Assembly (NCBI RefSeq): GCF_003634965.1
Contig: NZ_RBXP01000019.1
Coordinates: forward strand, 124,001-188,000
From: Azonexus fungiphilus
Lineage (GTDB): Bacteria > Pseudomonadota > Gammaproteobacteria > Burkholderiales > Rhodocyclaceae
DNA: 64,000 bases
Direction: 5' to 3'
In this document: in pieces, positions 9,869 to 54,576 of the stretch
How positions within the stretch are numbered: the first letter of the stretch is position 1
Layout: each line of letters opens with the position of its first letter
Notes under the pieces: model-generated
The model's database searches: none
What the model was told of the DNA's origin: nothing
The model's input: the letters and a program-made list of their open reading frames with translations, nothing else
Made by a program: the position numbers and the translations under genes

Positions 9869-11235
9869 CAGATGCGCTTGGCCAGTTCGGCGGCCTTGCC
9901 GGTGTAATCCCAGGGCGTCAGCTTGAGCAGCTCGGCCTTGGCGGCTTCCGGGATATCCAGCGTGGACACGAAGGCCTGCATGCCGTCGCGCGAGACGCGG
10001 GTGCCGCGGGTCAGTTCCTTGAGCTTTTCGTAGGCGTTGGCCACGGCGTAGCGGCGCATCACCGTCTGGATCGGCTCGGCGAGCAGTTCCCAGTTGGCGT
10101 CGAGGTCGGCCTTCATCAGGTCGGCGTTGATTTCCAGCTTGCCCAGGCCCTTCAGCAGCGAGTCGTAGCCGAGCAGCGTGTAGCCGAGGCCGACGCCCAT
10201 GTTGCGCAGCACCGTGGAGTCAGTCAGGTCGCGCTGCCAGCGCGAGATCGGCAGCTTCTCGGCGAGGTGCTTGAGGACGGCGTTGGCCAGGCCGAGGTTG
10301 CCTTCCGAGTTCTCGAAGTCGATCGGATTGACCTTGTGCGGCATCGTCGAGGAGCCGATTTCGCCGGCCTTGACCTTCTGCTTGAAGAAACCGAGCGAGA
10401 TGTAGCCCCAGACGTCGCGATCGAGATCGACCAGGATGCTGTTGGCGCGGGCAAAGGCGTCGAACAGTTCGGCCAGCGCGTCGTGCGGCTCGATCTGGAT
10501 GGTGTAGGGATTGAAGGTCAGGCCGAGCGATTCGACGAAGCGCTTGGCGAAGCCTTCCCAGTCGTAGCCGGGGTAGGCCGCCAGGTGGGCGTTGTAGTTG
10601 CCGACCGCGCCGTTGATCTTGCCGAGCAGCTCGACCTGGGCGATGCGGGCGCGGGCGCGCTGCAGGCGGTAGGCGACGTTGGCCATTTCCTTGCCCATCG
10701 TCGACGGCGTCGCCGGCTGGCCGTGCGTGCGGCTCATCATCGGGATGTCGGCGTAGGCGTGGGCCAGTTCGCGCAGCTTCTCGATGACCTTGTCCAGCGT
10801 CGGCAGCATGGCCTGTTCGCGGGCGCCCTGGCACATCAGCGCGTGCGACAGGTTGTTGATGTCTTCGGAGGTGCAGGCGAAGTGGATGAATTCGCTGACC
10901 TTGACCACTTCGGCATTGCCCTTGGTCTTGTCCTTGATCCAGTACTCGAGCGCCTTGACGTCGTGATTGGTGGTCGCCTCGATGGCCTTGACCTCGGCCG
11001 CCTGGGCCGGACCGAAGCCGGCGACGAGCGCGTCGAGCTCGCTGACGGTCGACGGCGAAAAAGCGGCAATTTCCGTGAAATGCGGCTCGGCGGCGAGCGC
11101 CTTCAGCCATTCGATCTCGACCTTGAGACGGGCGCGGATCAGGCCGAACTCGGAAAAATGCTCGCGCAGGGCATCGACCTTGCCGGCGTAGCGGCCGTCG
11201 AGCGGGGAAATGGCGGTCAGGGGATTGAAGTCCAT
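9868..11235 (-). CDS. purB: Adenylosuccinate lyase PurB
   Basis: Cleaves SAICAR to AICAR and adenylosuccinate to AMP plus fumarate in purine synthesis. The 455-aa length and the fumarase/aspartase signature [20 protein letters not shown] identify the long gammaproteobacterial-type PurB. The catalytic histidine region is [11 protein letters not shown] and the N-terminal [13 protein letters not shown] is present. The codons for [10 protein letters not shown] (near residue 60) overlap a good copy of the dispersed repeat. Alone at the head of a three-gene unit; GST is divergent. Confidence 0.96.
11041..11073 (+). repeat. Dispersed GGTCGAC/A-tract repeat copy inside purB
   Basis: ACGGTCGACGGC core at 11045-11056, then GAAAAA (11056-11061) and GCGGCAATTTCC. 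It is antisense to purB and encodes part of FSPSTVSE. Same arrangement as the copies at 21594 and 35133. Confidence 0.65.
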
Positions 11236-11297
11236 AAAAACATCCTTATCGTTGAGGGCGTGATTTTACCCGCCCGACCACGGCCCGCGCCATACGC

Positions 11298-11303
11298 TAT
11301 AAT
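11298..11303 (+). promoter_or_regulatory. Candidate sigma-70 -10 box for the GST gene
   Basis: TATAAT at 11298-11303, 27 bp before the ATG at 11330. No convincing -35 hexamer at the right spacing, so assignment rests on the perfect -10 and its position. Confidence 0.5.
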
Positions 11304-11329
11304 CGGCCACCCCAATCCAAGAGCATGCG

Positions 11330-11938
11330 ATGAAGCTGATCGGCACCCACACCAGCCCCTACGTCCGCAAGGTCCGGATCGTCCTGGCTGAAAAAAAGAT
11401 GGAATACGACTTCGTGATCGACTCGCCGCGCCAGGCCGGCAGCTGCGTGCCCGACATCAATCCGCTCGGCCGCATCCCGGCCCTGGTGCTCGACGACGAA
11501 ACGCCGCTGTTCGACTCGCGGGTGATCGTCGAACACATCGACAACATCACCCCCAACAACAAGCTGCTGCCGGCCCCCAACCGCGAGCGCACCGAAGTCA
11601 AGCGCTGGGAGGCGCTGGCCGACGGACTGTGCGACGCCGCCGTCAGCGCGGTGATGGAAGGCCTGCGCCCGAAGAAGGAACAAAGCGCCGACTGGATCGC
11701 CCGCCAGCGCGAGGTGATCGACCGTTCGCTGCGCTTCATGGCGACGCACCTCGGTGAAAAGAGCTTCTGCATGGGCACCCATTTCTCGCTCGCCGACATC
11801 GCCGTCGGCGCCGCGCTCGGCTACCTGTGCCTGCGCTTTCCGGACATCGCCTGGCAGGAAAGCCACCCCAACCTTGCCCGCCTCTACGACAAGCTGATGC
11901 AGCGCCAGTCGTTCATCGACACCGTGCCACAGACCTGA
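11330..11938 (+). CDS. Glutathione S-transferase family protein (YibF-like)
   Basis: 202-aa cytosolic GST. The N-terminal thioredoxin-fold domain (1-80) has SPYVRKVRIVLAEKK and the cis-proline/glutathione region NPLGRIPALVLDDE, followed by LFDSRVIVEHID. The C-terminal helical domain (90-200) contains FSLADIAVGAALGYL, the N-capping box of GSTs. The serine in SPYVRK is the probable catalytic residue. Substrate unknown. Of two ATGs (11324 and 11330), the second gives the conserved MKLIGTHTSPY start. Followed by a strong terminator. Confidence 0.88.
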   Translation: MKLIGTHTSPYVRKVRIVLAEKKMEYDFVIDSPRQAGSCVPDINPLGRIPALVLDDETPLFDSRVIVEHIDNITPNNKLLPAPNRERTEVKRWEALADGLCDAAVSAVMEGLRPKKEQSADWIARQREVIDRSLRFMATHLGEKSFCMGTHFSLADIAVGAALGYLCLRFPDIAWQESHPNLARLYDKLMQRQSFIDTVPQT

Positions 11939-11961
11939 ACCGGCGCTGACGCGGATCGCCC

Positions 11962-52898: not shown

Positions 52899-53835
52899 AG
52901 CTCATCAGGCGCTCGTAGCGCTGCGCCAGCAGCGTATCGACCGGCAGTGCGGCGAGTTGCTTGAGCGATTCCTGGAGGGCCTTCTTGAGGTTGGCGGCCA
53001 TCGCGACGTGATCGCGGTGGGCGCCGCCGAGCGGTTCGTTGACGATGCGGTCGACCAGGCCCAGCGTCTTCAGGCGCGGCGCCGTGATGCCCATCGTCTC
53101 GGCGGCTTCCGGCGCCTTGTCGGCGCTCTTCCACAGGATGGAAGCACAGCCTTCCGGCGAGATCACCGAATAGGTCGAGTACTGCAGCATCTGCACCGTG
53201 TCGCCGACGGCAATGGCCAGCGCGCCGCCGGAACCGCCTTCGCCGATGATGGTGACGATCACCGGCACCTTCAGTTCGGCCATCACGTAGAGATTGCGGC
53301 CGATCGCCTCGGACTGGCCGCGCTCTTCGGCGCCGATGCCGGGGTAGGCGCCGGGGGTATCGACGAAGGTCATCACCGGCAGGCCGAATTTCTCGGCCAG
53401 CTTCATCAGGCGCAGCGCCTTGCGATAGCCTTCCGGACGCGGCATGCCGAAGTTGCGGTAGATCTTTTCCTTGGTGTCGCGGCCCTTCTGATGGCCGATG
53501 ACGACCACCGCCTGGCCGTTGAAGCGGGCCAGGCCGCCGACGATCGCATGGTCGTCGGCAAAGGCGCGATCGCCGTGCAGCTCTTCGAAATCGGTGAAGA
53601 TGTGCTGGATGTAATCGAGCGTATACGGACGCTGCGGGTGGCGAGCGACCTGGGAAATCTGCCAGGGCGTGAGCTTGGCGTAAATATCCTTGGTCAGTTG
53701 GGCGCTTTTCTTTTCCAGGCGGCCGATTTCTTCCGAAATGTCGACCGCGGTGTCGTCCTGGACGAAGCGCAGCTGTTCGATCTTGGCTTCGAGGTCGGCG
53801 ATGGATTGCTCGAAATCGAGGAAACTAGTTTTCAT
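52870..53835 (-). CDS. accA: Acetyl-CoA carboxylase carboxyltransferase alpha subunit
   Basis: 321-aa AccA, making malonyl-CoA with Acc[19 protein letters not shown] start, crotonase-like core with [36 protein letters not shown] and [14 protein letters not shown] 53835 is the conserved start; upstream frame is not coding. Operon with the glycosylase and tilS. Confidence 0.97.
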
Positions 53836-53893
53836 GGACTGCTCGGTTCTTGAGTTGGCGCGCATTTTACCCCAAAGGTCGGAGGGCAATGTG

Positions 53894-54535
53894 TCAGTAC
53901 GCGACCGGAAGCGGATCGAGACTGCGCCAGAGGTGCCAGGTGGCGACCGAACGCCACGGCCGCCAACGCTCGCCGACCTCGGCCAGGACGCGGCGCGAGG
54001 GCTTTTCGCCGGCCAGGTAGCGCATCCCGACGGCACGCTGCAGGCCGATGTCGTCGAGCGGATAGACGTCGGGACGCATCAGGTTGAAGATCAGGAACAT
54101 CTCGGCGGTCCACCGGCCGATGCCGCGCACCGTGCACAGTTCTTCGATCAGCGTCGCGTCATCGAGCTGCGGCCAGCCGGCCGGGTCGAGGCGGCCGTCG
54201 GCGAAATGCGCAGCGAGGTCAACGAGGTACTCGATCTTGCGCTGCGACAGCCCGCAACCGGCCAGCCCTTCGCCACCGAGCGCCAGCAACGGCGCCGGCG
54301 CGACGCTGCCGACGCGGTCGACGAAACGCGACCAGACCGAATCGGCGGCCTTGACCGAAATCTGCTGGCCGACGATCGAACGGGCCAGCGTGGCGAAGGG
54401 ATCGCCGCGCGAGGCCAGCGACACGCCGGCGTGTCGCTCGACCAGTTCGGCCATCAGCGGATCGGCCTCGGCCAGCGCCTGCGAGGCGGCCTCCCAGTAA
54501 TCGGGGCGGATCTCGGAAAACACCGGGGAAATCAC
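53894..54535 (-). CDS. DNA-3-methyladenine glycosylase II (AlkA-type, HhH-GPD)
   Basis: 213-aa base-excision enzyme. [22 protein letters not shown], helix-hairpin-helix [18 protein letters not shown] and the catalytic Asp in [13 protein letters not shown]. The best start is GTG 54535; the frame continues to a TTG at 54643, but those codons cross an intergenic dispersed-repeat copy whose GTGGAA serves as the only ribosome-site-like sequence. Upstream of accA in the usual betaproteobacterial order. Confidence 0.88.
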
Positions 54536-54540
54536 CGGAA

Positions 54541-54576
54541 TTCCACGGTCGACCGTGGAAAAAGGCAAAAAACCGG
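54541..54576 (+). repeat. Best-preserved intergenic copy of the dispersed repeat
   Basis: TTCCACGGTC and its exact inverse form a perfect 20-bp palindrome (54541-54560), then AAAGGCAAAAAACCGG. Located between divergent genes, six bases before the GTG of the glycosylase gene. Confidence 0.85.

Follow-up and report, generated by a model that had tools for sequence, protein, structure and literature searches.

A repeated motif of the genus Azonexus with the layout of a DNA uptake signal

According to the sections of PMC12616744 that we draw on, the Neisseriaceae and the Pasteurellaceae are the only families with known DNA uptake signals. As described in the corresponding parts of PMC12616744 and PMC1626085, the uptake signal sequence (USS) of the Pasteurellaceae has a core of 9 nt followed downstream by two AT-rich segments, extends over up to 32 nt, arises by mutation, shows no orientation bias and occurs in clade-specific types; its AT-rich segments are thought to aid melting and kinking at DNA entry. 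In most Pasteurellaceae, the Hin-type genomes among them, perfect cores outnumber all single mismatches together, as stated in the excerpted text of PMC1626085. The DNA uptake sequence (DUS) of the Neisseriaceae is depicted in the same parts of these sources as continuous, up to ~13 nt long and without flanking motifs (PMC12616744, PMC1626085), and eight dialects with a fixed inner core are distinguished in the portion of PMC3630211 used here. Here we analyse a repeat in a 64,000-nt stretch of DNA from Azonexus fungiphilus (assembly GCF_003634965.1, contig NZ_RBXP01000019.1, positions 124,001 to 188,000; hereafter the window, meaning the whole stretch). Judging from its sequence features, this repeat is very probably a USS-like uptake signal for natural transformation that serves self-recognition. 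The PurB protein encoded in the window falls within the Azonexus/Dechloromonas clade (98% to Azonexus hydrophilus), and its nearest matches are betaproteobacterial.

The pattern CGGTCRAC N14 WWWWW occurs 782 times in the window's genome, while the reversed pattern occurs once (0 + 1). Both orientations are present, as the initial annotation of this DNA had noted (393 forward, 389 reverse). We examined a 464-kb sample comprising the window and 400 kb from two contigs of the same genome; it holds 310 cores, of which 100 with fewer than four A/T in the five tract positions were left out and 210 were kept as sites. In this sample the 9-mer ACGGTCGAC has 135 copies and is the most over-represented among 9-mers with at least 60 copies (23x the mononucleotide expectation). 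The 344 predicted genes, called with a simple in-house script, contain 172 core-plus-tract sites, compared with a mean of 10.5 and a maximum of 18 in 60 rounds in which synonymous codons were permuted inside each gene. Demand of the protein or of codon usage is thereby ruled out as the cause, and a genome-wide signal was not refuted by this codon shuffle, which had been set beforehand as its possible refutation. The 171 fully coding sites (79 sense, 92 antisense) use all six frames; the initial annotation had the copies in genes staying in frame as TVDR or TVDGEK, which describes just one of these frames (sense phase 0, 38 of 171). Spacing between sites is near random (mean 2.3 kb, coefficient of variation 0.92), with no regular periodicity found, and there is a weak excess between genes, where 33 of the 210 sites lie compared with 11.4% of the sequence being non-coding. 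Orientation is likewise unbiased when summed over the 40 signal-rich genomes described below (10318 forward vs 10228 reverse), and counts of 48/53, 45/44 and 18/11 were obtained in three separate stretches.

The conserved unit is asymmetric and ~30 nt long, with T at -2, a core [A/G]CGGTC[G/A]AC and, 3' of the core, two A/T-rich stretches ~10 bases apart. In the window's genome ACGGTC[G/A]AC is the main form of the core and GCGGTC a minority form. When cores are aligned unfiltered, the first tract is weak (A/T of 0.43-0.60 at +13..+17) and the second strong (+23..+28, with a peak of 0.88 at +25), both over a background of ~0.33. A core-free search, based on 7-mers at a set distance ahead of A/T runs, returned the identical core at identical distances. 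Of the plan first proposed, a palindrome followed by two A-tracts, the palindrome is ruled out as the defining unit, because the non-palindromic ACGGTCAAC is followed by the same A/T tract as the palindromic cores. Around the 46 copies of the exact palindrome CGGTCGACCG in the 464-kb sample, the tract lies on both sides in 22, on one side in 19 and on neither in 5, which fits two overlapping units of opposite orientation. Palindromic copies are thus two opposed units that overlap through the self-complementary GTCGAC. In three fragments of 70-75 bases from between genes, the palindrome is predicted to pair as a hairpin stem (whole-fragment energies of -23 to -41 kcal/mol), and in a coding fragment (window 35566-35640) it does not form the main stem.

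Within the window there are 54 CGGTCRAC cores, 29 of which have at least four A/T among the five positions of the tract at +23..+27, while the other 25 fall below this and were left out of the count. The family is thus about three times as large as the ten sites first listed. Each of those ten places does hold a copy, although two differ from the core as it had been written (ACGGTCGACAGC at 14219, GCGGTCGACACG at 46642), and one of the supposedly good copies, at 21594, has a tract of only 3/5. The ten-base core CGGTCGACCG is indeed above chance (mean 0.26 and maximum 1 in 100 dinucleotide shuffles), but it occurs nine times rather than the eight reported, the copy at 44842 having been overlooked. 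The sites in the window are as follows.

2777..2806, minus strand: core TCGGTCAAC with an A/T tract of 4/5, a weak match
3831..3860, minus strand: ACGGTCGAC with A/T tract, overlapping the palindrome at 3850
8343..8371, plus strand: ACGGTCAAC with AAAAA, core non-palindromic
11045..11073, plus strand: ACGGTCGAC, GAAAAA then CAATTT, within purB, antisense
14219..14247, plus strand: ACGGTCGAC, CAAAAC then GGCAAAAA
16437..16465, plus strand: ACGGTCGACCG, GGAAAACC then GGCAAAAAACC
18173..18201, plus strand: GCGGTCAAC with tract
20474..20502, plus strand: ACGGTCAAC with a tract of 4/5
21591..21620, minus strand: site of the initial annotation, ACGGTCGACGGCGAAAAA, second tract 3/5 at the standard place
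22509..22537, plus strand: GCGGTCAAC with tract
24908..24937, minus strand: ACGGTCAAC with GGCAAAAA
28003..28032, minus strand: ACGGTCGAC, GTTTTTC then GATTTTTC
35127..35156, minus strand: site, ACGGTCGACGGCGAAAAAAC
35580..35609, minus strand: half of a palindromic pair, with GGCAAAAA
35598..35626, plus strand: partner half of the pair with 35580..35609, with GAAAAAT
37031..37059, plus strand: ACGGTCGAC with a tract of 4/5
39740..39768, plus strand: ACGGTCAAC with CAAAAT, in a glycerate 2-kinase-like gene, antisense
40344..40372, plus strand: ACGGTCGACCG with GAAAAA
44064..44093, minus strand: site in the three-site cluster 44064-44162
44121..44149, plus strand: site in the same cluster, GTTTTT then GTTTTTT
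44133..44162, minus strand: site in the same cluster, GAAAAAA then GGCAAAAA
46642..46670, plus strand: GCGGTCGAC with GGCAAAAA
48567..48595, plus strand: ACGGTCAAC with GAAAAA
52273..52301, plus strand: ACGGTCAAC with GAAATT
54527..54556, minus strand: half of a palindromic pair
54545..54573, plus strand: partner half of the pair with 54527..54556, ACGGTCGACCGTGGAAAAAGGCAAAAAACC
58279..58308, minus strand: ACGGTCAAC with GATTTC, in an Uup-like ABC-F gene
61412..61440, plus strand: ACGGTCGAC with ATTTTT
62202..62230, plus strand: GCGGTCGAC with a tract of 4/5
63210..63239, minus strand: ACGGTCGAC with TTTTTC

The three sites at 44064-44162, in both orientations and within less than 100 bp, lie in one long open frame next to a run of eight G. 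Two further words are over-represented in the window, possibly driven by codons: CTCGGCCT (40 vs 7.6 expected under an order-3 model) and AGCAGGTTGA (7 vs 0.25).

Among the genomes sampled, the signal is enriched in one genus only. That genus is represented by 76 genomes including the window's (51 of them with a completeness of 90% or more and a contamination of 5% or less), which we divided at 100 sites, a cut of our own choosing, into 40 signal-rich (117-941 sites) and 36 signal-poor genomes (2-96, many near the reversed control); G005 (96) lies just under the cut and G226 (117) just over it. Nine named records taken near purB are also signal-rich, at 0.28-0.75 sites per kb, Dechloromonas sp. 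H13 and sp. Dech2017 among them, and no sites were found in ~21 kb near purB of Azonexus hydrophilus DSM 23864 and D. hankyongensis. In the other genera of the order (392 genomes, remaining from 399 drawn, of which 7 belonged to this genus) we counted 0-12 sites, mostly no more than in the controls, which a few genomes such as G587 and G589 exceed (10 vs 0). Other genera of the family (146 genomes, stricter pattern) have at most 6 sites each, and 100 kb of G155, also from another genus, yielded no enriched word. Lone sites of full layout do occur in such genera (G078, G052, G165 and G119 among them), for example ACGGTCAACCGGAAAAAAGCGCAAAAAA in G078; they could reflect chance, DNA import or the remains of a related signal.

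The poor genomes are not uniform, as G005 has 96 sites, G191 54 and G152 42, with G218 and G234 also within 42-96, and the sites kept in these five may be relics. In 100 kb of G152 there was no trace of the core; in its whole genome the ACGGTC pattern matches 22 times, in several cases with the strict form ACGGTCAACCGGAAAAA, and these sites may have been left behind by a lost signal or have come in with imported DNA. Could the repeat of the window's own species be a relic as well, a former uptake signal that is now unused? This would be compatible with an origin as an uptake signal, and the 36 congeners with few sites lend it some weight, since a residue above the control in some of them suggests that the signal may decay after loss; in addition, mismatched cores outnumber perfect ones in the 464-kb sample (362 vs 135). 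We nevertheless regard it as unlikely, given that the window's genome is among the richest of the genus, that the perfect core ACGGTCGAC stands ten to one over the mean single mismatch (135 vs 13.4), and that the frames for ComEC, ComEA, PilQ and DprA are open in this genome.

The signal is spelt differently in different congeners. Across the 40 rich genomes, G precedes CGGTC in less than a quarter of the sites in 12 genomes, in at least 60% in 22 and in an intermediate share in 6; in two A-type genomes counted whole, A stands at this place in 622 of 782 sites (the window's genome) and in 737 of 792 (G187). Two genomes, G002 and G219, have in common a long consensus, CCACGGTCAACCGGAAAAA then CCAAAATT, in which ACGGTCAAC is the consensus core. 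A single site appears able to carry either dialect, because one near purB reads CTGCGGTCGACCGGATTTTTGGCCGAAAAA in two records (L026, L035) and CCACGGTCGACCGGATTTTTGGCCGAAAAA in a third (L033), homology being a visual judgement based on the neighbouring sequence. In a tree of 18 genomes based on four proteins, from which G187, G011 and G196 were left out (FkpB or IspH incomplete), a six-genome A-type clade is well supported and the window's A-type genome stands beside a G-type one; 4 of 15 inner branches are starred. The fewest changes on this tree are two for dialect and four for presence, on a weak tree with a long branch for the window's genome and 7 rows less than half filled.

This variation bears on the possibility that the repeat is a genome-wide site of a nucleoid or chromosome-organising protein, with the core bound and the phased A/T tracts bending the DNA. 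A core with phased tracts and near-random scatter would be compatible with such a site, and the self-complementary GTCGAC would suit a dimer. However, both the presence and the dialect of hundreds of sites vary between congeners, the core is asymmetric, with the non-palindromic ACGGTCAAC as the consensus in G002 and G219, and the intergenic excess given above is only weak, so that we consider this explanation quite improbable. HIP1 of cyanobacteria is described as strictly palindromic and is not known to have A/T arms. An iterated palindrome of this type, kept by an effect of methylation, repair or restriction on GGTCGACC, could account for the 120 copies of the palindrome ACGGTCGACCGT compared with 1 for its reversed control; it is very improbable as an explanation of the whole family, because the tract stands here also behind non-palindromic cores and because G002, with 619 sites, has 0 copies of ACGGTCGACCGT.

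How individual copies arise was examined in ~20 kb around a GspH match from 20 congeners; together with the window's own genome, 18 of the 21 had usable FkpB and IspH. Codon alignments of IleS (11 genomes), LspA (13), FkpB (18) and IspH (18) contain 26 site occurrences at 6 positions, all in signal-rich genomes, and no genome is gapped over any site. Because the alignments over coding sites are gapless, we take the coding copies in these four genes to have arisen by base substitution. The site in FkpB was made by silent codon choices: it is written with GGT CAA (Gly-Gln) in the window's genome and in G222, while the other 16 aligned genomes use GGC, GGA or GGG, or CAG, all encoding Gly-Gln. 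In signal-poor species the aligned genes lack the nucleotides of the sites even though the protein aligns, and the idea that the protein demands these letters was thus not borne out. Of the poor genomes, G152 and G205 contain a single site apiece within the 20 kb, at places outside the 26 aligned occurrences. Nucleotide BLAST placed small gaps beside some sites that are absent from the codon alignments. Two overlapping palindromic copies between genes (6948 and 6958 of the C2 stretch) may have originated by insertion, as the sequence around them cannot be aligned between species. A mobile palindromic element tolerated in proteins, inserted in frame like those of Rickettsia and offered as one option by the initial annotation, is hardly credible, since such unalignable intergenic copies face six coding positions that are gapless in all aligned genomes, coding sites in any of the six frames and the silent codon choices of FkpB.

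Support for the other option of the initial annotation, a signal for binding or uptake spread over the whole genome, comes from the 782 sites vs 1, the codon shuffle, the gapless alignments, the depletion of sites in inserted DNA (below) and the enrichment in one genus only among those sampled. As the sequence features match published uptake signals, with one exception among those tested (the ratio of perfect to mismatched cores, below), and as the frames for ComEC (867 aa), ComEA, PilQ and DprA are open in the window's genome, we infer uptake selection followed by molecular drive. Each copy would be a directional recognition site composed of the nine-base core and two 3' A/T tracts. The core would be bound by a receptor on the cell surface, probably one of the subunits of a type IV pilus, and the A/T tracts would help the duplex to bend or melt as the retracting pilus pulls DNA in by way of the PilQ pore, ComEA and ComEC. 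DNA that bears the signal would be taken up and recombined more often, and this bias would slowly enrich the genome for the signal, leading cells to import DNA of their own kind preferentially. A change of the receptor would then shift the dialect.

The import gene comEC offers a view of recently arrived DNA. In ten congeners (G190, G219, G018, G002, G225, G196, G005, G237, G236 and G221) it is divided into pieces separated by 2-64 kb, the point of division varying among several positions, and it is apparently frame-broken in an eleventh (G205). We did not count as split those genomes with pieces on different contigs or fragments (such as G008, G019, G006, G200, G214, G231 and G009), nor G203, with a frame break. 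Where both pieces share one contig in signal-rich genomes (G219, G002 and G196), the inserts have 1 site in 125.5 kb, compared with 48 in 154.5 kb of flanking sequence (binomial P = 9e-12). The insert in G219 encodes TniQ and a rve/Mu-type transposase (Tn7-like transposition genes), and that in G002 a phage integrase and a Type ISP restriction enzyme. Mobile elements may therefore hit comEC repeatedly, given the separated pieces in ten congeners and the mobile genes in two inserts (loci L130-L131 and L135). An interruption of comEC by transposable elements is also described for Piscirickettsia salmonis in the part of PMC12955456 referred to here.

It should be noted that a number of observations weigh against an uptake signal. 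The comEC inserts are lower in G+C than their flanks, a confounder for the depletion of sites, and depletion in recent DNA also fits any signal that accumulates slowly. The 27 single-mismatch variants of ACGGTCGAC total 362 copies in the 464-kb sample (13.4 per variant on average), more than the 135 perfect cores; with the two accepted variants set aside (GCGGTCGAC with 92 and ACGGTCAAC with 48), the remaining 222 still exceed them. The competence machinery does not predict the signal: of the 76 genomes, 68 have a ComEC and 67 a ComEA above the curated cut-off, and both sets include rich as well as poor genomes. Split comEC genes number 3 among the 40 rich genomes and 8 among the 36 poor ones, a trend only (P = 0.10), and we do not accept the explanation that the signal disappeared because comEC was lost. 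No receptor was found either, as no candidate family of pilins or GspH separates rich from poor genomes: by presence, GspH/FimT occurs in 69 of 76 genomes without separating them and N-methyl pilins in all 18 of the 18 genomes tested, and in a partial sampling of pilins (39 frames from 30 loci of ~3 kb) two clusters were mixed, one consisted of two poor genomes and none was rich-only. Finally, the minor pilin operon linked to ispH is probably not the receptor or the determinant of dialect, as it differs between genomes of the same dialect (G102 and G196) and is kept in a rich and a poor sister (G102 and G194, 79-83%). Between G102 and G196 the proteins on one side of this operon are 91-100% identical and IspH, on the other side, 82%, while the pilins and PilY1 within it are ~30% identical or unmatched.

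That operon looks like an exchangeable cassette (L157, from G102, and L158, from G196, around 9-19 kb). As a separate observation, two signal-rich genomes (G235, G015) have a sole match to the ComEA model that is under the curated cut-off.

Among the matches listed, we found no report of such a signal for Azonexus, Rhodocyclaceae, Dechloromonas or Betaproteobacteria in a literature searched by title and start of abstract, with many subscription papers and all preprints outside it; among the matches listed for the core letters, all appear unrelated by title. Based on our findings, we suggest that Azonexus/Dechloromonas probably has a third, independently evolved system of DNA self-recognition for transformation, which converged on the layout of the Pasteurellaceae rather than on that of the Neisseriaceae, with at least three dialects, repeated gain or loss and, by implication, an undiscovered receptor. 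If true, this convergence would mean that the layout of a core with bendable arms follows from the physical demands of drawing duplex DNA through the outer-membrane pore. With a further lineage of Pasteurellaceae-like layout it would also become possible to compare three cases and ask why these signals evolve and which of their parts are physically required, and 40 rich and 36 poor genomes with several dialects in one genus would form a natural experiment, in which the receptor can be sought by co-variation and the features that go when preference is lost can be followed. A laboratory test is feasible, since the signal-rich Dechloromonas sp. H13 and sp. Dech2017 appear by title to be isolates (their records are not labelled as metagenome-assembled genomes).

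Compared with known repeats, the Azonexus motif has partial likenesses to several. Rickettsia palindromic elements are insertions, present as short repeats inside genes; the Azonexus motif resembles them in the latter respect and differs in that its coding sites align without gaps. With HIP1 it has in common hundreds of partly palindromic copies within genes, but here the palindrome is optional and A/T arms are present. Like the DUS of Neisseriaceae it forms species dialects that differ in a few bases around a fixed inner core; unlike the DUS, it is discontinuous, has A/T tracts and is written in other letters, and no counterpart of the DUS receptor ComP was identified in this analysis. Its closest counterpart is the USS of Pasteurellaceae. 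The two differ in that the Azonexus host is betaproteobacterial and high in G+C, in that the core is not AAGTGCGGT or ACAAGCGGT, in that it ends in TC[G/A]AC and so overlaps its own complement to give palindromic double sites, and in that mismatched cores outnumber perfect ones. The USS receptor is itself only predicted, as put in the sections of PMC12616744 cited above, and the uptake bias of Azonexus is likewise proposed from sequence. The density is of the same order, 0.47 per kb in Azonexus and near one per kb for the USS in the cited part of PMC1626085, and the GCGGT string of the USS recurs in the G dialect of Azonexus. Both the USS, in its AAGTGCGGT and ACAAGCGGT types, and the Azonexus motif combine a 9-nt core with two 3' A/T segments over ~30 nt, show no orientation bias, occur in more than one type and arise by mutation, for Azonexus in the four genes aligned.

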